This document shows positions 1,210 through 12,872 of a DNA stretch of 34,682 bases, one piece after another. Position 1 is the first letter of the stretch. Each line of letters begins with the position of its first letter. Position numbers and translations under genes: made by a program. The notes below the pieces were generated by a model. The model saw only the letters and a program-made list of their open reading frames with translations, did not search any database and was not told where the DNA came from. Source of the stretch: Nocardioidaceae bacterium. GTDB lineage: Bacteria; Actinomycetota; Actinomycetes; Propionibacteriales; Nocardioidaceae. The DNA lies in NCBI GenBank assembly GCA_013697905.1, contig JACCVZ010000203.1, forward strand, positions 1-34,682, read 5' to 3'.

Positions 1210-3132
1210 TTGCGCGTCCAGGCTGACCGAGGGCGGTTGCTCTTCGGCTCCGCGACGGTGTGCGCGCTGGTGCTGACCGCGTGCACAGGGGGCGACGCTA
1301 CGCCGACACCTGACAGCCGCACGGCTGCCGACGTGGGCGGCGGCACGGTGATCAACGCGTTTGCGGCAGCGTGGTCGGAGTCCGATCGACCCGACTTCCG
1401 CTCGATCGTCAACGAACCCGGGATCGCTTCTGCAGACATCGCGGCGCACGTTGCCGAGCTCGGCATCTCCGCTACCGACGTGCGCCCGCTCGGCGACATC
1501 GAGTGCGATGGCGATTCCTGCCAGGAGTACGCCGAGGTGACGCACGAGCTCTCGGGGGCGGGTGAGTGGACCTACAAAACCCTCATTAGGGCCCAGCTGG
1601 AGCAGGGCCAGTGGTTGGTCAGCTGGAGCGCCGGCACGTTTCAGCCCGACCTCAGCGAGGCGAACACGCTGGTGCGCACCCGCAAGCTCCCGACCCGCGC
1701 GCCGATCGTCGACCGCAACGGCAACGCGCTCACCCCCGAGCGCGCGATCGTCCGGATCGGGGTCAAGGCGGGCCAGGTCACCCCCGACACCTACGACCTG
1801 CTCGGGTCCCTACTCGACATCGACACCATCCCTCTGCAGGAGGAGGTCGCGGCGTCCAACCCCGAGTTTTTCGTCCCGGTGATCGACCTCCGACGGGGGG
1901 CTTACGAGCCGCTGCGCACCGGCCTGCTTCAGATCCCTGGCATCTCGATCGACACCGCCCAGCGGGCGCTGGCGCCGACGTCGGAATGGGGCCGAGCGAT
2001 CTTGGGTACCGTCGGACCGGCCACGGAGGAGGCTCTCGCGAACGCCGGCGAGGAAACGCTTCCGAGCGACGAGGTCGGCCTGTCAGGTCTTCAGCTCGCC
2101 TTTCAGGAACGGCTCGCCGGAACGCCCGGCGTCGCCATCGACCTGGTCGAGAAGAACTCTCCCGACAACGTCCTCAACCAGGTGCTGTTCCGGCGTCCGG
2201 AACCTGGGCAGGCACTGGAGACAACGCTCGACATCGATGCGCAGATGGCCGCGGAGGAGGCGGTGTCCAACGCCGCTGACACCACCTCGCTGGTCGTCGT
2301 CAAGGCCAGCACCGGGGAGGTCCTCGCCGCTGCGAACGCGCCGGGCCCGACGTCGTTCAACACCGCCTTCATCGGCCGCTACGCGCCTGGCTCGACGTTC
2401 AAGGTGGTCAGCGCCGCCGACCTGCTGCGCCAGGGTGTGGTGACTCCGCGGACAACGGTGACATGCCCGGACACGACCGTGGTGGACGGCAGGCGGTTCA
2501 AGAACTACGACGTCGGCATCGTGTCCGGCGCCGCTGACTTCTCCGACGCGTTCGCAGCCTCCTGCAACACGACCTTCGTGTCGTACGCCGACCGCACGTC
2601 CGGCAAGCAGCTGGCCGACACTGCGGCGCAGTTCGGCTTCGGTGCGGAGTGGGACCTTGGCATCGATGCTTACAGCGGCTCGGTGCCGGCGGACGACGAC
2701 CTGGTTACCCGAGCGGCCGACATGATCGGCCAGGGGACGGTGCTCGCCAGCCCGCTGATGATGGCGATGGTGGCCGCAGCAGTCGACTCCGGTGTCTCCA
2801 GGACCCCGACCCTGCTGCCAGGGCAGCAGCCTGGAGTGCGCCTCCACGAGCTCGACCCTAAGCTCATCGAGGCGCTGCAGGGCATGATGCGTAAAGTGGT
2901 CACCGAGGGCACTGGGGCGACGATCGACCTGCAGGGGTTGCCCGTCTACGCGAAAACCGGGACGGCGGAGTACCAGCAGGGCAAGCGGACGCGGACGAAC
3001 GCCTGGATGATCGGCTACCGCGGTGACCTCGCGTTCGCGGTCCTGGTGGAGAACGGCGCGTCCGGTGCCGACGATGCCGCACCGGTTCTCGCCTCGTTGC
3101 TGGGCAACCTGCCGCAGCGGTTGTATCAGTAG
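1210..3132 (+). CDS. Penicillin-binding lipoprotein (D,D-transpeptidase, Rv2864c-like)
   Basis: This 640-residue protein cross-links peptidoglycan on the outer face of the membrane. The N-terminus is a lipoprotein signal with lipobox LTAC and lipidated Cys25. An NTF2-like MecA_N domain follows (about residues 40-150), then a PBP dimerisation domain (about 155-320) and the transpeptidase (about 340-635). The three active-site motifs are intact: SxxK as S395-TF-K398, SxN as SCN 451-453, and KTG at 582-584. Domain order and length match the mycobacterial lipoprotein PBP Rv2864c and staphylococcal PBP2a-type class B enzymes. The start is TTG at 1210, chosen because it gives a complete signal peptide. 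Its last 7 bases overlap the convergent end of bioD. Drug resistance cannot be inferred from the fold alone. Confidence 0.93.
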   Translation: MRVQADRGRLLFGSATVCALVLTACTGGDATPTPDSRTAADVGGGTVINAFAAAWSESDRPDFRSIVNEPGIASADIAAHVAELGISATDVRPLGDIECDGDSCQEYAEVTHELSGAGEWTYKTLIRAQLEQGQWLVSWSAGTFQPDLSEANTLVRTRKLPTRAPIVDRNGNALTPERAIVRIGVKAGQVTPDTYDLLGSLLDIDTIPLQEEVAASNPEFFVPVIDLRRGAYEPLRTGLLQIPGISIDTAQRALAPTSEWGRAILGTVGPATEEALANAGEETLPSDEVGLSGLQLAFQERLAGTPGVAIDLVEKNSPDNVLNQVLFRRPEPGQALETTLDIDAQMAAEEAVSNAADTTSLVVVKASTGEVLAAANAPGPTSFNTAFIGRYAPGSTFKVVSAADLLRQGVVTPRTTVTCPDTTVVDGRRFKNYDVGIVSGAADFSDAFAASCNTTFVSYADRTSGKQLADTAAQFGFGAEWDLGIDAYSGSVPADDDLVTRAADMIGQGTVLASPLMMAMVAAAVDSGVSRTPTLLPGQQPGVRLHELDPKLIEALQGMMRKVVTEGTGATIDLQGLPVYAKTGTAEYQQGKRTRTNAWMIGYRGDLAFAVLVENGASGADDAAPVLASLLGNLPQRLYQ

Positions 3133-3839
3133 CCTGGAACAGGTTGCCCGAGCACGGCACCGAGGTGCAGCCAGCGCGCGCACTCGCCACGGAACCGCGC
3201 TGCCTCGAAGCCGCCTGCCCCAGCGGGGAGGTGACCCAGCACGGGCAGTCCGGTGAGTCGAGGCAGCTCGTCGATGTTGCACCGCTCGGCGAGGCCGAGC
3301 CGGTCAGGGACCGACCCCACGATGAGGCCTGCTGGCTCCACATCGGCTGCCCGGACCGCTCCGACCGTCAGCTCGGTGTGGTTGAGCGTCCCGAGCGCGA
3401 GCGTCGTCACGACCAGCATCCGAGGTGACTGGCCGGCGACTGCGAGGTGGCGCGCCAGGGCAAGGATGGTGCCGCCGGCGGTGTCGAGCCGGACCGCGAC
3501 GCCGCCGGCGCCTTCGACGAACGTGACGTCGTGGCCGTGAGCGATCTCGATCACGCGGGCGGCAAGGCTTGCCACCTTCGGAAGCGACAGCTTGCGGAGG
3601 CGCGCGGCGGTGTCAGGGGCCAGCGGGTCATCGAGTCGCACCAGCTCGTGCAGTGAAGTGCATCCGCTGAGCTGCCCCACGGTGGCGAGGTCGCCCGGCT
3701 CCGCGGCGGAGACGCCGGTTTGGGTCGGCTTCACGACCGCAACTCGATGACCTGCCGACATGGCAAGCGAGGTGAGGGCCGCGGTCACCACGGTCTTGCC
3801 GACACCGGTGCTGGTGCCGGTGACGACCACGATGGTCAT
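3126..3839 (-). CDS. bioD: Dethiobiotin synthetase
   Basis: BioD makes dethiobiotin from 7,8-diaminopelargonate, CO2 and ATP, the penultimate step of biotin synthesis. The 237-residue protein starts [16 protein letters not shown], which is the P-loop (GTSTGVGKT, Lys15) of the SIMIBI-class fold. The EGAGG motif, around residue 110, is the second family signature. It is the third gene of a minus-strand bioA-bioF-bioD operon, and its ATG overlaps the bioF stop by 4 bases (3836-3839), implying translational coupling. Its 3' end overlaps the convergent penicillin-binding protein gene by 7 bases. Confidence 0.95.
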   Translation of the reverse strand: MTIVVVTGTSTGVGKTVVTAALTSLAMSAGHRVAVVKPTQTGVSAAEPGDLATVGQLSGCTSLHELVRLDDPLAPDTAARLRKLSLPKVASLAARVIEIAHGHDVTFVEGAGGVAVRLDTAGGTILALARHLAVAGQSPRMLVVTTLALGTLNHTELTVGAVRAADVEPAGLIVGSVPDRLGLAERCNIDELPRLTGLPVLGHLPAGAGGFEAARFRGECARWLHLGAVLGQPVPGY

Positions 3840-4963
3840 CGACGCCGCCGGATCTCGGTCAGCCTTGCCAGCACCCGCAGGGCATCGTTGTCGGTCAGGG
3901 CCGCCGACGCCGTCAGGCGCAGCCGACTCACCCCGTCGGGCACTGACGGCGGTCGGAAACAGCCCACCCAGAGGCTGTTGGCGGCAAGGGCGGCCTGCGC
4001 CTCGAGAGCCTCGGCCGGACCTGGCATCGGGACCGAGAGCACGGCACCGGCGGGGGGCGGAAGGCCCAGTCTGTCTGCCATGGCTATGGCGAGCGCCCGT
4101 GCGCGCTGCGGGAGCTGGGGCTCGGCCTCCAGCACCGCCAGAGCCTCGTAGGCCGCGCCGGTAGCTGCCGGCGCCAGGCCGGTGGCGAAGATGAACGGGC
4201 GCGCCACGTTGACCAGATGCTCGACGACGAGGCTAGAGCCGAGCACCGCACCTCCCTGCGCCCCGAGCGCCTTCGACAACGTGACGGTGGAGACGACGTC
4301 AGGGCGTTGGGTGAGGCCGTGCGCGCTCAGCAGCCCCCGGCCACCGACTCCGGCGACGCCGAGGGCGTGCGCTTCGTCCACGACGAGCACACCGCCATAC
4401 CGGTCGACCGCCTCAACCAGGCGCTCGAGTGGCGACTCGTCGCCGAGCACGGAGTAGACCGACTCCACGATCACGAGAGCGCGCGCCAGCGCGCGGTCAC
4501 GCAAGGCGGAGGCGACAGCGTCGGGGTCGTTGTGCGGGACCACCACCAGTCCGCCCGGTCGGGCCAGCCGGCAGGCGTCGATGAGCGAGGCGTGCACATG
4601 GGCGTCGCTCACGATGAGGGTGTCGCGGTCGGTGAGGGCGGTGACGACAGCGAGGTTGGCCTGGTAGCCGGTCGGGAGGACGAGCGCGGCCGATTGGCCG
4701 GTGAACGTGGCGAGTCGTTCCTCGAGGTCGGAGTGCAGCTGGAGCGTGCCGGTGACGAGCCGCGACGCTCCTGCTCCTGCCCCCCAACGCAGGGCTGCGT
4801 CGGCGGCCGCCCGGGTGATCCGGGGGTCGTGGCCCAAGCCAAGGTAGTCGTTGCCGGCGAGATCGATGTGGTCGCCCGACGGTTGTCGCGGTTTCAACGT
4901 GCGCTCGAGCCCCGCCGCGGCTCGGGCCGAGCGGTGGTCGACGAGCCAGTCCTCGAACGTCAT
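3836..4963 (-). CDS. bioF: 8-amino-7-oxononanoate synthase
   Basis: BioF is a PLP enzyme that condenses pimeloyl-ACP or pimeloyl-CoA with L-alanine to give 8-amino-7-oxononanoate. The 375-residue protein shows the alpha-oxoamine synthase hallmarks: NDYLGL near residue 38, the DEAHALGV motif (Asp196, His199) and the PLP lysine in TLSKALG (Lys231). The glycine-rich phosphate-binding stretch [11 protein letters not shown] is at about 63-73. Length is normal for the family. It overlaps both neighbours by 4 bases (ATGA type), so bioA, bioF and bioD are almost certainly one transcript. Confidence 0.95.
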
Positions 4964-6243
4964 GCGTCAGCCGCCGCGACCATCGCGGCACAGACCTGGG
5001 CGAGGTCGATGTCGTCCATGACGTAGGCGGGCATGGTGTAGACAAGGTCGCGGAAGGGTCGGATCCACACCCCGTTGTCGGCGGCGATGTCGCTCGCCCG
5101 CACGACATCGACGCGTCTGTCGAGCTGGATCACGCCGACCGCACCAAGCACGCGCACGTCGGCGACGCCAGGGAGGGCGCGGGCCGGCTCCAGTCCCGCG
5201 CGGAGGCCGGCCTCGAGTCGGCGCACCTCGTGCTGCCAGCGTTGCCGCAGCAGCATCTGGATGCTGGCGACGGCGGCGGCGCAGGCGAGCGGGTTGGCCA
5301 TGAAGGTCGGGCCGTGCACGAGCACACCGATCTCGCTGCGGCCGATCCCGCGGGCGACCTCACTGGTGCAGAGCGCGGCCGCCAGGGTGAGGTAACCGCC
5401 GGTCAGTGCCTTGCCGACGCAGATGATGTCGGGGTCCACGTCGGCCTGCTCGGCCGCGAAGAACGTCCCCGTGCGGCCGAACCCGGTGGCGATCTCGTCG
5501 AAGATCAACACCAGGCCGTGCTCGTCGGCCACCTCCCGCAGCACCCGTAGGCAGTGCGGGTTGTAGATGTGCATCCCGCCGGCACCTTGGAGGACGGGCT
5601 CGCAGATGATCGCGGCGAGCTCGTCTGCGCGGGCCGAGGCAAGAGCCCGGGTCTCGGCCTCCCAGTCGGCGGTGTCGGCCTCGTAGCCGGCGGGCGGCTG
5701 CGGCGCGAACACTTGCAGAGGCAGCGAGTCGGCGAACATGGCGTGCATGCCGCCGATCGGGTCGCAGACGCTCATGGCGCCGAGGGTGTCGCCGTGATAG
5801 CCGCCGCGCAAAGCCAGTGTCCTGGTGCGCCCCGGCCGGCCCTGTCCGCGCTGGTACTGCGCCGCCATCTTCAGCGCTACCTCGACGGCCACGGACCCTG
5901 AGTCGGCCAAGAAGACGTGCCGGAGCGGATCGGGTGAGAGCTCGACGAGCAGCCGGGCGAGGGTGACGGCCGGCTGATGGGTGAGCCCGCCGAACATCAC
6001 GTGGCTCATGGTGGCAATTTGATGGCGCATCGCCTCGTCGAGGACCGGGTGGCGGTAGCCGTGGATCGCGGACCACCACGAGGACATCGCGTCGATGAGC
6101 TCGGTGTCGTCGTGAAGCGTGATCCGGACGCCGGCGGCCCCGCTGACGAGGCGCACGGGGGTCGGGTGCGTCATCGATGCGTAGGGATGCCATAGGTGCT
6201 CTCGGTCGAGAGTGAGCAGCTCGGAAGGCAGAGGGGGAGGCAT
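4960..6243 (-). CDS. bioA: Adenosylmethionine-8-amino-7-oxononanoate aminotransferase
   Basis: BioA transfers the amino group of S-adenosylmethionine to 8-amino-7-oxononanoate, giving 7,8-diaminopelargonate. The 427-residue class III aminotransferase has [10 protein letters not shown] near residues 54-63, a BioA-specific substrate-pocket signature. It also has the cofactor motif [12 protein letters not shown] (Asp249) and the PLP lysine in GKALTGG (Lys278). It is the first gene of the minus-strand biotin operon, divergent from bioB across 102 bases. The start ATG at 6243 lies 9 bases after a TAGCCT -10 box, so the leader must be very short or absent. Confidence 0.95.
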
Positions 6244-6345
6244 CGTACGCCGAGGCTATCGCCGTCGACTGCCGCAGACGGGTGCGGTCACCTGGCGGTG
6301 GAGCGTCGACGGTAGGAGCCGGGTCGCCCCCGCTAGATTGCCGGA
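6244..6345. promoter_or_regulatory. Divergent bioA/bioB promoter region
   Basis: Two back-to-back -10 boxes are visible. TAGCCT on the minus strand (6253-6258) lies 9 bases before the bioA ATG. TAGATT on the plus strand (6334-6339) lies 6 bases before the bioB GTG, the spacing of a leaderless transcript. The 75 bases between them could hold an operator. I see GTCGAC twice (inside GCCGTCGACTG and GCGTCGACGG) but no palindrome I can tie to BioQ, BirA or BioR. Confidence 0.5.
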
Positions 6346-7350
6346 GTGACCGACAGAGCCGATTTCCTCGCCGTTGCCCGCCAGCAGGTGCTCGAGGAGG
6401 GCCGCGGACTCTCCGAGGAGCAGCTGGTCGAGGTGCTGCGGCTGCCGGGGGACGACCTGCCGGCGCTGCTCGAGCTCGCCCATGACGTGCGGTTGCGCTG
6501 GTGCGGTCGTGATGTCGAGGTCGAGGGGATCGTGTCCTTGAAGACGGGCGGGTGCCCAGAGGACTGTCATTTCTGCTCACAATCTGGCCAGTTCTCGTCG
6601 CCGGTCCGCGCGGTGTGGCTGAACATCCCAGAGCTGGTCGAGGCAGCGAGACAGACGGCGGCGACGGGGGCGTCGGAGTTCTGCATCGTGGCGGCTGTCC
6701 GTGGCCCCGACGACCGATTGCTTCACCAGGTCGAGGTCGGCATCGAGGCGATCCGGGCTGAGGTCGACATTCAGATCGCCTGCTCGCTCGGCATGCTCAC
6801 CCAGCCTCAGGTCGACCAGCTCGTCGGGATGGGCGTGCACCGCTACAACCACAACCTGGAGGCGGCCAGGAGCTACTTCGCCAAGGTCGTCACGACGCAC
6901 TCGTACGACGAGCGCTGGCAGACCTGCGAAATGGTGCGCGAGTCCGGGATGGAGCTGTGCTGCGGCGGCCTCGTCGGCATGGGGGAGTCGCTCGAGCAAC
7001 GCGCCGAGCTCGCCGCCGAGCTCGCCGCCCTCCAGCCGGACGAGGTTCCCCTCAACTTCTTGAACCCGCGCCCCGGCACGCCTTTCGGCGATCTGCCCGT
7101 GATGGAGTCCGGCGACGCGCTGCGCACGGTGGCGGCGTTCCGGTTGGCGATGCCGCACACGATCCTGCGCTACGCCGGCGGACGCGAGATCACGCTCGGC
7201 GAGCTCGGCACCCGCGACGGCCTGCTCGGCGGCATCAACGCTGTCATCGTCGGCAACTACCTGACCACCCTCGGCCGCAACCCGGATGAGGACCTCGCGC
7301 TGCTCGGCGAACTGCAGATGCCGATCAAGGAGCTCTCCAAGACGCTATGA
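6346..7350 (+). CDS. bioB: Biotin synthase
   Basis: BioB is a radical-SAM enzyme that inserts sulfur into dethiobiotin to form biotin. The 334-residue protein has the radical-SAM cluster motif CPEDCHFC (Cys70, Cys74, Cys77), the BioB signature FCSQSGQF right after it, and YNHNLEAA further on. GTG at 6346 is the start: TAGATT ends 6 bases upstream, leaving no room for a separate ribosome binding site, which fits leaderless translation. It is divergent from bioAFD and overlaps the downstream bsaP gene by 4 bases, so both should be made together. Confidence 0.96.
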
Positions 7351-7592: not shown

Positions 7593-7841
7593 GTCGTGCT
7601 CGTCGTGGCACCCGGGCGAGAGGCTGATCGTTGATCGAACCGGCACTACGCCACCACCAGCCGTTTTTCTTGACTGGCAGATCTGGCGATATGCGGAGCC
7701 TTCGGACTAATTGCCCGATACATCTGCGGCCGCCTGCTCGTCACGGCTCCAACCAGACTCGATCCGTGCAAGAATCGGCGCTGAGTCAACCACCATGATC
7801 ATCGTGGCTGTAGCCCGCTCGGCGCAGCTCTTGGAGGACCG
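7593..7841 (+). other. Intergenic region upstream of the GNDW-repeat peptide
   Basis: This 249-bp stretch is less GC-rich than its surroundings. A weak hairpin, CGGC paired with GCCG followed by TTTTT at about 7664-7668, could end the bioB-bsaP transcript. TTGACT at 7670-7675 resembles a -35 element but has no good -10 partner at 16-18 bases. Near 7794-7801 there is a small palindrome, ATGATCAT. No convincing promoter for the peptide gene is visible, so it may depend on an alternative sigma factor. No ORF with coding character was found. Confidence 0.4.
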
Positions 7842-8021
7842 ATGAAGAAGCGCCTGATCGCCGTCGCGGCGGCATCTCTGCTCGCGGCAATCGCCTTGAT
7901 CGGCAGTGGTCCTTCGACGACCCTCGCCGCCGACGCCAGCGAGCTCGCTCCCGGGACCAGCCTGCGCGGCAACGACTGGGAGTTCCCCAGCACCAGCTTG
8001 CGCGGCAACGACTGGGAGTGA
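7842..8021 (+). CDS. Small secreted peptide with two TSLRGNDWE repeats
   Basis: This 59-residue ORF has a strong ribosome binding site (GGAGG at 7833-7837, 4 bases before the ATG). A classic signal peptide follows: MKKR, then a hydrophobic stretch from Leu5 to about Leu19, with likely cleavage after Ala30 (TLAA|DA). The predicted mature product is about 29 residues and is mostly two 12-residue-spaced copies of P-x-TSLRGNDWE, at residues 39-47 and 51-59. The second copy ends exactly at the stop codon. There is no cysteine, so it is not a disulfide peptide or typical lanthipeptide. Only 14 bases separate it from the next gene, a membrane-bound sensor phosphatase, which suggests a secreted signal and its receptor. 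I do not recognise the family; a structural or antimicrobial role is also possible. Confidence 0.82.
   Translation: MKKRLIAVAAASLLAAIALIGSGPSTTLAADASELAPGTSLRGNDWEFPSTSLRGNDWE
7956..8019 (+). repeat. Direct repeat, 2 x 28 bp, 36-bp period
   Basis: Copy 1 spans 7956-7983 and copy 2 spans 7992-8019. They differ at one base (C7962 versus T7998), a synonymous leucine change. The period is exactly 12 codons, so this is an in-frame duplication within the peptide gene. Confidence 0.95.
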
Positions 8022-8035
8022 CCGAGCACTAGCGT

Positions 8036-10768
8036 TTGTCCACCGCTGTGGCCAGGCGAGTTAACGCCTATGTGGCACTCCTGCTGGCGGCCGCGGCAGC
8101 TACGGTCATAGCGGCGAACCTCCTCGACCTCGAGCCCCCGGCCGCTACCCCTGTCTGGCCGACACTTCCGTTCCTCGTGCTCGGCCTGGTTGCGGCGGGG
8201 CAGCTGCGGGTGCGCTTTCGCCGCGGTGACGATGTCGACTCCTTGACCCTGTTCGAGGCGGCGCTCGCGCCTCTCATCTTCGCGTTTTCCCCCACGGTCG
8301 TGGTGGTCACGGTAGCGATGGTGCAGGCATTCACGGCGGTGCTGCGGCGAACATCTCCGGTCAAGGCGGTGTTCAACATCGCTCAGTGGTGCCTTGCGGC
8401 GGGCGTGGGGAGTGTCGTGCTGGCAGCCCTGCTGGACGAGCCGGGGGTCTCCCTGGAGGCGCTCGGCGTGTTGGTCGTTTCACTCGCCTGCGTCGGGCTG
8501 GTCAACAACACGGCGTTCACCCTGGTCCTCGCGATCTCAGGACGCCAGTCGGTGGCGACTGTCCTTCAGGAACTGCGTCCAGTCCTGGTCCCGGGTTGGC
8601 TTGGTGGGTGGGGCGTCAACGTGCTCATCGGGCTGTTGTTCGTGATGGCGGTTGACAGCAACCCCGTGGCGGTCGTGCTCATTCCGGTCCCGCTCCTCGT
8701 CCTGCACCTGGCCTACCGGGGGTATGCAGCAGCCCAGTCGGATCGCTTTCGGCTTACAGGTCTGCGCAAGGCGACCCAGACCTTGTCTGCGCCGCTGCAC
8801 CCCCGCGACGCCATCGACGACTTCACCCGCGACGTGACCCGGTGCTTCGAAGCCCGCGGCGCCGGCCTGATGCTGTTCAGCGAGACGGGGGACCTGGAGG
8901 TCCACCAGGTTGATGCCACGGGCGCGCTGCTCACGCACACCCAGCCCGGCGGCTCTGACTCCTTGGAGTCCGTCCTTGCTGCCCAGCCCGAGCCCATTCG
9001 CGTCACCGTCACCGACTCCGGTGCTCTGTCAGCTCTGCTGGCTGCTGCCAGCTGGCGGGACTGCATCTGCGCGCCACTGGTTGCCGAGCAGCGACGGCTC
9101 GGCGCGCTCGCCGTGTTCGACCGAACGGGGCTCGAGAGTGACACCAAGGCCGACCTGGTGGTGCTGGAGACACTTGCGCGGGAGACTGCGCACACGATCG
9201 CCCGGGGCCGGCTGTTCGAGAGCGTGGTCGAGGAAAGACGCAAGCTCGACCGGATCGTCAGCACGACCTCGGACGGCATCTTCACCCTCGCCGAGGACGG
9301 CTCTGTGCTGACCTGGAACGCGGGGTGCGAGAACATCACCGGCCTCGCTGAGGTCGACGCACTCGGGCGTCGCGACGCCCTCGAGCGGCTGCAGGCGCGC
9401 ACCGCGGTCGGCGTTGCGATCGACTTCGTCGGCTGGGCAGGCGAGTCGGCTCTGCCGGCAGAGGTGGTCATCACCAGGGTCGACGGATCCCACCGCCGAC
9501 TGTCGTGCTCTGCCAGCACGGCAACCGATCTCGACCGGCTGTCGCAGACACTCGTCGTGGTGGCCCGCGACATCACCTCGGCCGAGGAGTTCGAGGAGCT
9601 GCGCGAACAGTTCGGCCGGCTGGTGGAGGCCCAGGCCGCGCAGCGTCTGGTGGTCGAACATCTGCAGCAGGCGGTCGCCCCGGAGCCACCTGGCATCGAC
9701 GGAGCTGACATCGCCGTCGCATACGTTGCCTCGGACCCCTCGTCTCCTACCGGCGGTGACCTGTTCGACTGGCACCTGCTGCCGACAGGCGAGCTGCATG
9801 TCGCCGTCGTCGACGTGCTCGGACACGGGGTTGCCGCGACAAAGGACGCCCTCGTCGTCGTGCACGCGCTACGGTTCGCTGCCGTCGACGGCACTCCGCT
9901 AGCCGAGCTGGTCCGCCGGACCGATGAGCTGCTGTCGGCCGATGCCGCCGACCTCGTCGCCACCGTGGTGATCGCCCGGTACCAAGCCGAGACCGGTCAG
10001 CTGATGGTGGCGTCGGGAGGCCATCCGCCGGCCCTGGTGGTCGGCTCCGATGGCAACGTGACCGAGCTGGCCGCCACCGGTGGCGCCATCGGATGGCCCG
10101 GCGTGGGGAGTGACAACGTGGTGACCACGAGGCTCAGAATCGGTGAGTCGCTCTTGTTGTACACAGACGGACTCATCGAGGCCCGCAAGGACGTGATCAG
10201 CGGAATGAGCTCCCTGATGCATCACGCCAGCGATGTGGCGCACCTGCCGGCTGCGCAGTTCGCCGACGAGCTGGTCAAGCGATCTCTGCTCGGCGCGAAA
10301 CGACGAGACGACAGCCTGGCCCTGGTGCTACGGCGGACGCGGAGCCGCGTCGTGCCCGAAGCGATGCGCTGGGAGGTGACGCCTGGAAGCGAGGTGGCGA
10401 TCGGACACGCCCGGCGGGGGCTCGGAGAGTGGCTGGGCAACCAGCGACGAGATGCTGACGACGCCGTGCTCGTGGCGTCAGAGCTGATGGCGAACGCCGT
10501 GATGGCGGCGTCCACCTCGGTCGTGCTCACCGCGGTGATGAAGGATGACCAGCTCGTGCTCGAGGTGACCGACGACGGGAGTGGGCACGATCATCTCGAT
10601 CAGCTTGGGCTGACGCTCCCCGCTACCGATTGCGAACGGGGGCGTGGCCTGTTCCTGGTGAGGGCGCTCAGCGACGATGTCTCGATCCTGAGCAGCCCAA
10701 CGGGTACGGTGGCGCGTTGCGTCGTACCCGCTCGCCAATCAGCCCCCGACAGCGACAGCGGCCGATAG
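8036..10768 (+). CDS. Membrane sensor with GAF, PAS, PP2C phosphatase and HATPase domains
   Basis: This 910-residue protein starts with about 230 residues of hydrophobic helices (roughly six or seven membrane spans). A GAF-like domain follows (about 250-395), then a PAS domain (about 402-515) and a SpoIIE/RsbU-type PP2C phosphatase (about 550-760). The phosphatase shows its metal-binding motifs GGDLFDW (about 572), DVLGHG (about 591), YTDGLIEAR (about 708) and DDSLALV (about 757). The C-terminus is an RsbW/SpoIIAB-type ATPase with the N-box SELMANAV (about 815), DDGSG (about 846) and GRGLFLV (about 868). Such proteins control sigma factors by dephosphorylating an anti-sigma antagonist and by acting as anti-sigma kinase. 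TTG at 8036 or GTG at 8048 could be the start; neither has a clear ribosome binding site, so coupling to the upstream peptide gene is likely. No sigma factor or antagonist gene is adjacent. Confidence 0.9.
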   Translation: MSTAVARRVNAYVALLLAAAAATVIAANLLDLEPPAATPVWPTLPFLVLGLVAAGQLRVRFRRGDDVDSLTLFEAALAPLIFAFSPTVVVVTVAMVQAFTAVLRRTSPVKAVFNIAQWCLAAGVGSVVLAALLDEPGVSLEALGVLVVSLACVGLVNNTAFTLVLAISGRQSVATVLQELRPVLVPGWLGGWGVNVLIGLLFVMAVDSNPVAVVLIPVPLLVLHLAYRGYAAAQSDRFRLTGLRKATQTLSAPLHPRDAIDDFTRDVTRCFEARGAGLMLFSETGDLEVHQVDATGALLTHTQPGGSDSLESVLAAQPEPIRVTVTDSGALSALLAAASWRDCICAPLVAEQRRLGALAVFDRTGLESDTKADLVVLETLARETAHTIARGRLFESVVEERRKLDRIVSTTSDGIFTLAEDGSVLTWNAGCENITGLAEVDALGRRDALERLQARTAVGVAIDFVGWAGESALPAEVVITRVDGSHRRLSCSASTATDLDRLSQTLVVVARDITSAEEFEELREQFGRLVEAQAAQRLVVEHLQQAVAPEPPGIDGADIAVAYVASDPSSPTGGDLFDWHLLPTGELHVAVVDVLGHGVAATKDALVVVHALRFAAVDGTPLAELVRRTDELLSADAADLVATVVIARYQAETGQLMVASGGHPPALVVGSDGNVTELAATGGAIGWPGVGSDNVVTTRLRIGESLLLYTDGLIEARKDVISGMSSLMHHASDVAHLPAAQFADELVKRSLLGAKRRDDSLALVLRRTRSRVVPEAMRWEVTPGSEVAIGHARRGLGEWLGNQRRDADDAVLVASELMANAVMAASTSVVLTAVMKDDQLVLEVTDDGSGHDHLDQLGLTLPATDCERGRGLFLVRALSDDVSILSSPTGTVARCVVPARQSAPDSDSGR

Positions 10769-11260: not shown

Positions 11261-11336
11261 GGTCGTTCCCTTCGTGAGTGTCATCGCCGAGGTCCGACGA
11301 TGGTGTTGTCTGGATGACTCGCGCCCGGACCGAAAC

Positions 11337-12764
11337 TCATCGCTCGCTCAGGCCGCCTGGGGAAGCGGCAGCCGCCGGCACCTTCGGGTTGCGGATGAGA
11401 AGCCACGACACCACCCCACCTGACACCAGCATCCCCACGCCGAGCCACACCGCGCGCTGATAGCCGGCGGTGAAGGCGTCCGGGCGCTCGTAGTCGGCGC
11501 CACTCAGGCCGACGACCGTGGGCAGCGCCGCGACTGCCAGCAGCGACCCCATTCGAGCAACCGCGTTGTTGATGCCGCTGGCGACGCCGGCGTTGTGATC
11601 CGGCGCGGCGGCCAGCACCGTCGACGTGAGCGGGGCGACCAAGAGGGCGAGGCCGAGGGCAAAGATGGTGAGGCCGGGGCCGACATCGGTCCAGTACGTC
11701 GTGTCGGCGTCGACCCGGCTGAGCCACCCCAGGCCGAGCGCGCACACGAGCGGACCGACGGTCATCGGGACGCGCGGCCCGATCCGGCTGGCAAGCTGAC
11801 CACCCCGGGCCGCCAACAGCAACATCACGCCCGTGATGGGCAGGGTTGACAGGCCCGCTTCGAGGGGACCGTAACCGGCGACGGTCTGGAGTTGGAGCAC
11901 CAGGAAGAAAAGGACACTGCCGAGAGCTGCGTACACGAGCAGTGTCATCGCGTTGGCTGCGCTGAACTGCCGGCTGGCGAACAGCTGCGTCGGCATCATC
12001 GGATGCGGGCACACCCGCTCGACTGCGATGAACGCGGCGACCGAGCCGAGGCCGACCACCGCACTTGCCACCACCACCGGCGTACTCGAGCTCGCCGTCT
12101 GGATCAACGCGAAGGTAAGGCCCGCCAGGCCGACGGCGGCCAGCACCGCGCCCGTGACGTCGAATCCGGGCACTGCCTCGGCATCTCGTGTCTCCGGAAC
12201 GTGGCGTTGGGCGATGAAGATGGTCGCTAGGGCCAGCGGAAGATTGAGCAAGAACACCCATCGCCAGCTTGCGTACTCCACCAACCAGCCGCCGACGAGC
12301 GGGCCGATGGCAGCCGCGATACCGCCAAGTCCCGCCCAGGCGCCGATGGCCCGGGCACGGTCCGCCGGATGGAACGAGCCCTGGATCATGGCGAGGCTGC
12401 CCGGAGTGAGCAACGCGGCCCCGACGCCCTTCAGCACCCGCGCGACGATCAGCTGCGCAGGGTCCTGGGCGGCACCGCAGGCGAGCGACGCAACAGCGAA
12501 CCAGATCGTGCCGACCACGAAGACGCGACGACGCCCGAACTTGTCGCCGAGCGAGCCACCGAGCAGAATCAGTGACGCCAAAGCAAGCAGATAGCCGTTG
12601 GTGATCCACTGGAGCTGCGCCAGGCTGGCGTCGAGGTCTCGACCTATGCTGCGGAGCGCGACGTTGACCACCGTCCCGTCCAGCAGCGCCATCCCCTGCC
12701 CGAGCACCGCGGCGGTCAGCACCCAGCGTCCGGTGGTGGAGTGATACCGCAACCCCTCGCTCAC
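11337..12764 (-). CDS. MFS drug exporter, DHA2 (EmrB/QacA) family
   Basis: This 475-residue integral membrane protein has a hydrophobicity pattern consistent with 14 helices. Near the N-terminus is LDGTVVNVALRSI (residues 28-40), the helix-1 motif of the 14-TMS DHA2 proton antiporters. The loop 2-3 motif A, GGSLGDKFGRRR, is at 69-80. A motif C-like stretch, GAWAGLGGIAAAIGPLVGGWL, lies near residue 140-162. It probably exports a hydrophobic or cationic compound by proton exchange; the substrate is not predictable. The start is GTG at 12764. It is divergent from an acetyltransferase gene, and no adjacent TetR or MarR regulator is present. Confidence 0.92.
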   Translation of the reverse strand: MSEGLRYHSTTGRWVLTAAVLGQGMALLDGTVVNVALRSIGRDLDASLAQLQWITNGYLLALASLILLGGSLGDKFGRRRVFVVGTIWFAVASLACGAAQDPAQLIVARVLKGVGAALLTPGSLAMIQGSFHPADRARAIGAWAGLGGIAAAIGPLVGGWLVEYASWRWVFLLNLPLALATIFIAQRHVPETRDAEAVPGFDVTGAVLAAVGLAGLTFALIQTASSSTPVVVASAVVGLGSVAAFIAVERVCPHPMMPTQLFASRQFSAANAMTLLVYAALGSVLFFLVLQLQTVAGYGPLEAGLSTLPITGVMLLLAARGGQLASRIGPRVPMTVGPLVCALGLGWLSRVDADTTYWTDVGPGLTIFALGLALLVAPLTSTVLAAAPDHNAGVASGINNAVARMGSLLAVAALPTVVGLSGADYERPDAFTAGYQRAVWLGVGMLVSGGVVSWLLIRNPKVPAAAASPGGLSER

Positions 12765-12872
12765 ACGAGAAGCGTCTCATCTGCTCATTCCCCGGACTGC
12801 TGGTTGGCTCTCGGAGCGCACAGGCACGGGCCACGCAGGTGGCGCCCAGTGGCAGACATTAGAGTTGGCCGC
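12765..12872. promoter_or_regulatory. Divergent promoter region, MFS exporter / acetyltransferase
   Basis: On the plus strand TAGAGT (12860-12865) ends 7 bases before the GTG at 12873, a leaderless arrangement. Just upstream of the MFS start there is GAGA-N4-TCTC at about 12767-12778, a short inverted repeat that could be an operator but is too short to assign. Confidence 0.45.

Follow-up and report, generated by a model that had tools for sequence, protein, structure and literature searches.

A short gene for a repetitive peptide lies directly upstream of a gene for a large membrane sensor in a 34,682-nucleotide stretch of Nocardioidaceae DNA, here called the window, and raises the question of whether the two products form a signalling pair. 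Small exported peptides encoded beside signalling proteins are well known from the peptide signalling operons of Gram-positive bacteria – for example AgrD/AgrC, ComC/ComD and Phr/Rap – and the window has the same layout, with a small peptide gene (export judged by eye) next to a membrane receptor gene. Cell-cell signalling in the Actinobacteria is thinly documented; one review reports quorum sensing in 25 of 342 actinobacterial genera, nine of them with experimental evidence (PMC4748050).

A sequence-only reading of the window had paired an exported Trp-motif peptide with the membrane sensor. That pairing stands, with synteny in six genera and a protease-tailed form across the phylum, and two features had been overlooked: a relationship to the C-terminal tails of subtilases and the predicted S-component fold of the sensing domain.

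Results

The peptide gene and the sensor gene

The peptide gene starts with ATG and its translation, read from the window, is MKKRLIAVAAASLLAAIALIGSGPSTTLAADASELAPGTSLRGNDWEFPSTSLRGNDWE (Table 1). A gene of 59 codons with a ribosome binding site had been claimed, and both are borne out, the gene being kept in relatives. The signal peptide has a KKR n-region, a hydrophobic core and small residues at its end; as for all carriers described here it was assigned by eye, and export is a prediction. The earlier call of a signal peptide agrees with this Sec-like reading, and the signal sequence recurs in eight other genomes. The two TSLRGNDWE copies, previously described as exact, are identical in protein and a single synonymous base apart, and the translation confirms that the peptide contains no cysteine. 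The window peptide matches no family in Pfam (above cut-off), NCBIfam or PHROGs and is thus not a member of a known unrelated family in these libraries; a plasmid search with it as the query gave no match, and searches for an Rfam family, a sigma-70 promoter and a terminator found none.

The sensor gene begins 14 nt past the peptide stop codon, and translation could also start from a GTG at 8051. Its length of 910 residues, its spacing and its co-directional arrangement are as previously described, as are the GAF (residues 257-387), PAS (403-513), SpoIIE/PP2C (584-767) and anti-sigma-type kinase (HATPase_c_2, 790-894) domains, all found by Pfam; the AF2 model has about seven membrane helices, in line with the six to seven spans proposed. 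The membrane region scores 24.4 bits against MASE9 (PF20972), with a cut-off of 24.3. MASE9 proteins in general are not supported as partners of Trp peptides, because L065-L067, the three loci with strong MASE9 matches in the class, showed no upstream Trp-repeat ORF.

Table 1. Features of the peptide-sensor locus in the window
Feature	Position	Strand	Basis
Shine-Dalgarno GGAGG	7833..7837	+	4 nt 5' of ATG; direct reading
Exported (predicted) Trp-motif peptide gene, 59 codons	7842..8021	+	orthologs in L035-L042
Sec-type signal peptide, cleavage likely after ..STTLA	7842..7928	+	by eye
Repeat copy 1, TSLRGNDWE (core GNDWE)	7956..7982	+	direct reading
Repeat copy 2, TSLRGNDWE, last residue abuts stop codon	7992..8018	+	direct reading
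Sensor, membrane domain-GAF-PAS-SpoIIE-HATPase, 910 aa, TTG start	8036..10768	+	ORF and Pfam
Membrane sensing domain, predicted ECF S-component-like fold	8036..8800	+	AF2, Foldseek
SpoIIE/PP2C phosphatase domain	9785..10336	+	Pfam E 8.7e-33
RsbW-like HATPase_c_2 domain	10403..10717	+	Pfam E 7.1e-15

Biotin genes lie directly upstream of the pair (3126-7350), and comprise an AAA_26 dethiobiotin-synthetase-like gene, two aminotransferases and BioB. On the reverse strand, a 517-codon ORF (11281-12834) without a Pfam match may or may not be a gene. Assignment of the locus to a RiPP cluster was rejected, because there is no adjacent modifying enzyme and the radical SAM neighbour, BioB, belongs to the biotin genes.

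Conservation in the Nocardioidaceae

An ortholog of the sensor is present in 15 of 150 genomes of the family, and in nine of the 15, including the window, a small Trp-motif ORF with a Sec signal lies directly upstream; the repeat is therefore conserved beside such sensors, with synteny in nine genomes of six genera. These peptide ORFs carry between one and five Trp motifs, for the most part G-x-x-W-[E/D]: GNDWE twice in the window and, in the others, GNDWE x3, GVDWE/GTDWE, GTSWE x3, GNSWE x5, GNSWE x3, GVGWD x2, GVSWE x1 and ANGWNWD (G005). All nine end in W-[E/D]-stop, and eight have a GGAGG-type site in front of the gene. Between G000 and G027 the signal sequence has a pS of 0.38 and a pN of 0.13, which points to purifying selection on it. 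The peptide gene is a real gene.

Many of the genomes are MAGs and several contigs end near the locus. The neighbourhood varies, with the biotin genes upstream of the pair in the window and a polyprenyl-synthase-like gene (by eye) in G026, where a biotin neighbourhood was not seen beside the pair. For six Nocardioidaceae sensors of genus g21 no Trp peptide partner was found, and five of the six follow a polyprenyl-synthase-like gene (by eye). Because these six and several distant sensors have no Trp partner, the sensor domain can work without one.

Trp-tailed subtilases elsewhere in the Actinomycetota

A profile of the membrane domain, together with contigs of named genomes, extended the comparison to the Frankiales, Acidimicrobiia and other Actinomycetota. 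There, the gene directly 5' of the sensor encodes a secreted subtilase of the S8 type, and [G/A/S]-x-x-W-x motifs form a long array at its C-terminus, among them GSRWY, GSSWL, GGSWF x9, GSSWY x12, NASAW, SNAWD and ARSWA; the arrays often end in YGAW[D/E]. These carriers belong to the S8 subtilases (PF00082), and all tested carriers without a simple S8 signature proved to be S8 by Pfam. The nearest NCBIfam model is the T7SS mycosin TIGR03921, against which a carrier scores 148.6, under the 278.75-bit cut-off. The carriers differ from S8 subtilases as described in having a Trp-repeat tail that no library model matches, and the window form differs further in lacking the protease. The motif sequence varies between systems, even inside one genome, and when the commonest Trp-centred five-mer was extracted by script from 59 systems, 58 had G, A or S at position -3, a figure that is a description and not a statistic because a few entries (L041, L072, L243, L245) were mis-picked.

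A homologous subtilase was not found in G000 (a 94% complete genome), and the window has the stand-alone form. The Nocardioidaceae peptide appears to be a reduced form of a larger module in which the repeats are the C-terminal tail of a subtilase. This module of Trp tail and sensor is apparently undescribed so far: no description of the repeats was found in full-text searches of open-access papers, a scope in which absence is not proof of novelty. A defence system was rejected as an identity for the module, with no PADLOC match for the sensor and only generic subtilase/IetS matches for the protease.

Specificity of the pairing

By one fixed criterion a Trp-motif ORF lies upstream at 32 of 38 sensor loci, and two further loci have single-copy peptides. 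At the class level a Trp-repeat-tailed S8 protease is the upstream gene at 25 of 29 loci, and in a phylum sample 20 of 28 loci are paired (19 with Trp-tailed S8 proteases and one with a stand-alone repeat protein). As a control, 20 other SpoIIE genes of the same genomes were searched, and none has an upstream Trp-motif ORF. A reciprocal search with a blind DNA pattern (Trp codons at a period of 15) recovered eight Trp-tailed secreted ORFs. Downstream DNA is available for seven of the eight, and in every case the next ORF is multi-TM or sensor-like; only ORF-verified matches were used, because the TGG-period pattern is noisy in high-GC genomes. The genes for the Trp-motif carrier and the sensor are paired, and the window is of this kind, with [G/A/S]-x-x-W motifs in a predicted secreted product encoded directly 5' of a sensor that is predicted to be S-component-like.

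Stand-alone forms and selection on the repeats

The Trp-motif part occurs without a protease in three lineages: the Nocardioidaceae, G193 and G553. The G193 form is a secreted ORF with its own Shine-Dalgarno sequence and four SHTWE copies (L129, 3463-3837 on the reverse complement), located before a GGDEF-EAL sensor, and in G553 a membrane sensor is preceded by an exported, protease-free protein rich in GISWVG copies (L262, 885-1367). Spacing is irregular in all three stand-alone forms, which suggests that conservation acts on a short linear motif rather than on a regular fold; a solenoid of period 5 is an unlikely requirement on the same grounds. In a tree of 85 membrane domains, the window clade is nested in tail-associated sensors (100/99). 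The stand-alone state needs three changes on this tree, which does not separate gains from losses and does not include the G193 sensor.

Repeat copies within a gene are constant in protein and differ at synonymous sites. Twelve GSSWY copies have nine DNA variants, the five GNSWE copies of G039 have four, and 11 GASWY copies give a pS of 0.48 and a pN of 0. The motif is under selection at the protein level, and these synonymous differences led us to reject a DNA-level repeat such as a binding site.

Predicted fold and outputs of the sensor

The AF2 models of the membrane domains of the window sensor and L058 have pLDDT values of 86.2 and 87.7, and are not fully independent because they were built on the same alignment rows. 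The nine best Foldseek matches of the window model are all ECF S-components, and for the two models together the best PDB matches include RibU, FolT and BioY. Every one of the top nine and top ten PDB matches is an S-component or an ECF complex, with probabilities of 0.94-1.00, TM (target) values reaching 0.72 and modest E-values (best 0.011 and 0.0018). A sequence search for a solved structure of the sensing domain found none. The membrane domain is thus predicted to have an ECF S-component-like fold, known from vitamin-binding proteins.

Partipilo and Slotboom (PMC11109136) showed that transporters and 5TMR receptors, SpoIIE fusions among them, are connected by this fold. By analogy with the topology described there, residues 58-71, an Arg-rich hairpin, may form a lid on the extracellular side. 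Residues E74, K110, F113, N114 and N157 are better kept in partnered than in unpartnered sensors, although this may reflect closer relatedness, the unpartnered sensors being more distant, and some of these residues may be on the cytoplasmic side. Outputs assigned by Pfam include SpoIIE (L098), GGDEF-EAL (L101, L113, L129) and histidine kinase (L102, L106, L111, L114, L115).

Discussion

A proposed extracellular sensing module and its rivals

The explanation that we favour as a whole, at slightly better than an even chance, is a two-gene extracellular sensing module in which an exported Trp motif is recognised by the sensor, of which it is probably the extracellular partner and ligand. The first gene would export short [G/A/S]-x-x-W motifs, either as a free peptide of ~30 residues with two GNDWE motifs, as in the window, or as the repeat tail of a secreted subtilase. 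The product of the second would be a membrane receptor that recognises the Trp motif through its S-component-like domain, the Trp side chain most likely entering the pocket that binds vitamins in ECF transporters. Occupancy of the pocket would alter the cytoplasmic GAF-PAS relay and through it the output – c-di-GMP enzymes or a histidine kinase in other systems and, in the window, a SpoIIE phosphatase and RsbW-like kinase. We infer binding, Trp as its key contact and an outside-to-inside direction; the SpoIIE and HATPase domains suggest control of a sigma factor through partner switching.

Docking, inhibition or anchoring to the envelope would be expected to leave the same genomic trace as a ligand role. 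The main rival gives the Trp motif a role in docking or regulation and not in signalling: it would hold the protease on the sensor, which would itself sense another ligand or be released once the motif is removed. The carriers elsewhere are indeed proteases, multiple identical copies would suit avidity, and an S-component-like pocket could take a small molecule; the Nocardioidaceae forms, however, carry no enzyme that could be docked and go down to a single motif, so that the motif alone must act. We consider docking unlikely, and equally so its stand-alone version, in which the peptide is a small inhibitor or co-receptor.

Weaker still is envelope binding, in which the repeats would attach to the wall or the membrane and the sensor would report the state of the envelope, the two products sharing a process without contact. 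Wall- and membrane-binding modules do contain Trp-rich repeats, and an S8 protease with a sensor would suit envelope stress, yet the pairing is specific to one sensor-domain family while output type varies freely, and a wall target common to all systems would sit oddly with motifs that differ between them, even inside a single genome; we regard envelope binding as improbable. The tree fits a series from protease-plus-tail to stand-alone, single-copy and lost, as expected were the Nocardioidaceae peptide a decaying relic of a protease gene with its catalytic part deleted, but conservation of the Shine-Dalgarno sequence, signal sequence and terminal W[E/D] across genera, pN below pS and the variant DNA of the five G039 copies make decay very improbable. 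A chance ORF with a random repeat, for all that high-GC DNA is rich in small ORFs, has a negligible likelihood and was rejected, given conserved synteny in nine genomes, the recurrence of the pair in eight others than the window with signal sequence and C-terminal motif, and the empty control.

A broader version of the sensing module is tentative, at a little less than an even chance: phylum-wide peptide sensing in the Actinomycetota, with a small-x-x-Trp motif particular to each system, on a protease tail or free repeat peptide, and a dedicated S-component-like receptor, its vitamin-type pocket repurposed and wired to SpoIIE, c-di-GMP or histidine kinase outputs. The data point to an undescribed form of extracellular sensing in bacteria, and such a module might supply an input to orphan membrane proteins of the SpoIIE, GGDEF-EAL and kinase types.

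Relationship to known systems

The predicted fold of the sensing domain is shared with ECF S-components (RibU, FolT, BioY) and with S-component-fold receptors (5TMR_LYT, PF07694; BtsS, YpdA), whose outputs include kinase, GGDEF/EAL and SpoIIE as in the present family (PMC11109136). No PF07694 match is among the Pfam results for the window and related sensors, and the accessible text of that source pairs no exported Trp-motif protein with 5TMR_LYT receptors; BtsS, for example, is a pyruvate sensor, unlike the proposed Trp-peptide receptor. RsbU/SpoIIE partner-switching phosphatases have SpoIIE and RsbW-like HATPase domains in common with the window sensor, which is set apart by its predicted S-component-like membrane input and by its Trp partner, absent from the 20 control SpoIIE genes. 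In contrast to the Gram-positive peptide operons, the window pair has a repeat precursor with relatives fused to a protease, a predicted S-component-like receptor fold, a SpoIIE output and no dedicated processing gene seen next door.

The module is widespread and offers a short, testable motif with a receptor of predicted known fold, and its many motif/receptor pairs, some within one genome as in G159 and G182, which have several systems each, can be used for specificity tests. Two Nocardioidaceae that also carry the stand-alone peptide, G015 and G005, have a second, protease-tailed Trp-repeat gene beside a different multi-TM ORF (L180 and L181). The module has a divergent branch at L169 and L170, where the gene after the Trp-tailed S8 gene encodes a protein of ~485 aa with about four membrane helices (no Pfam match at L169) and the ORF after that has a kinase-like end.
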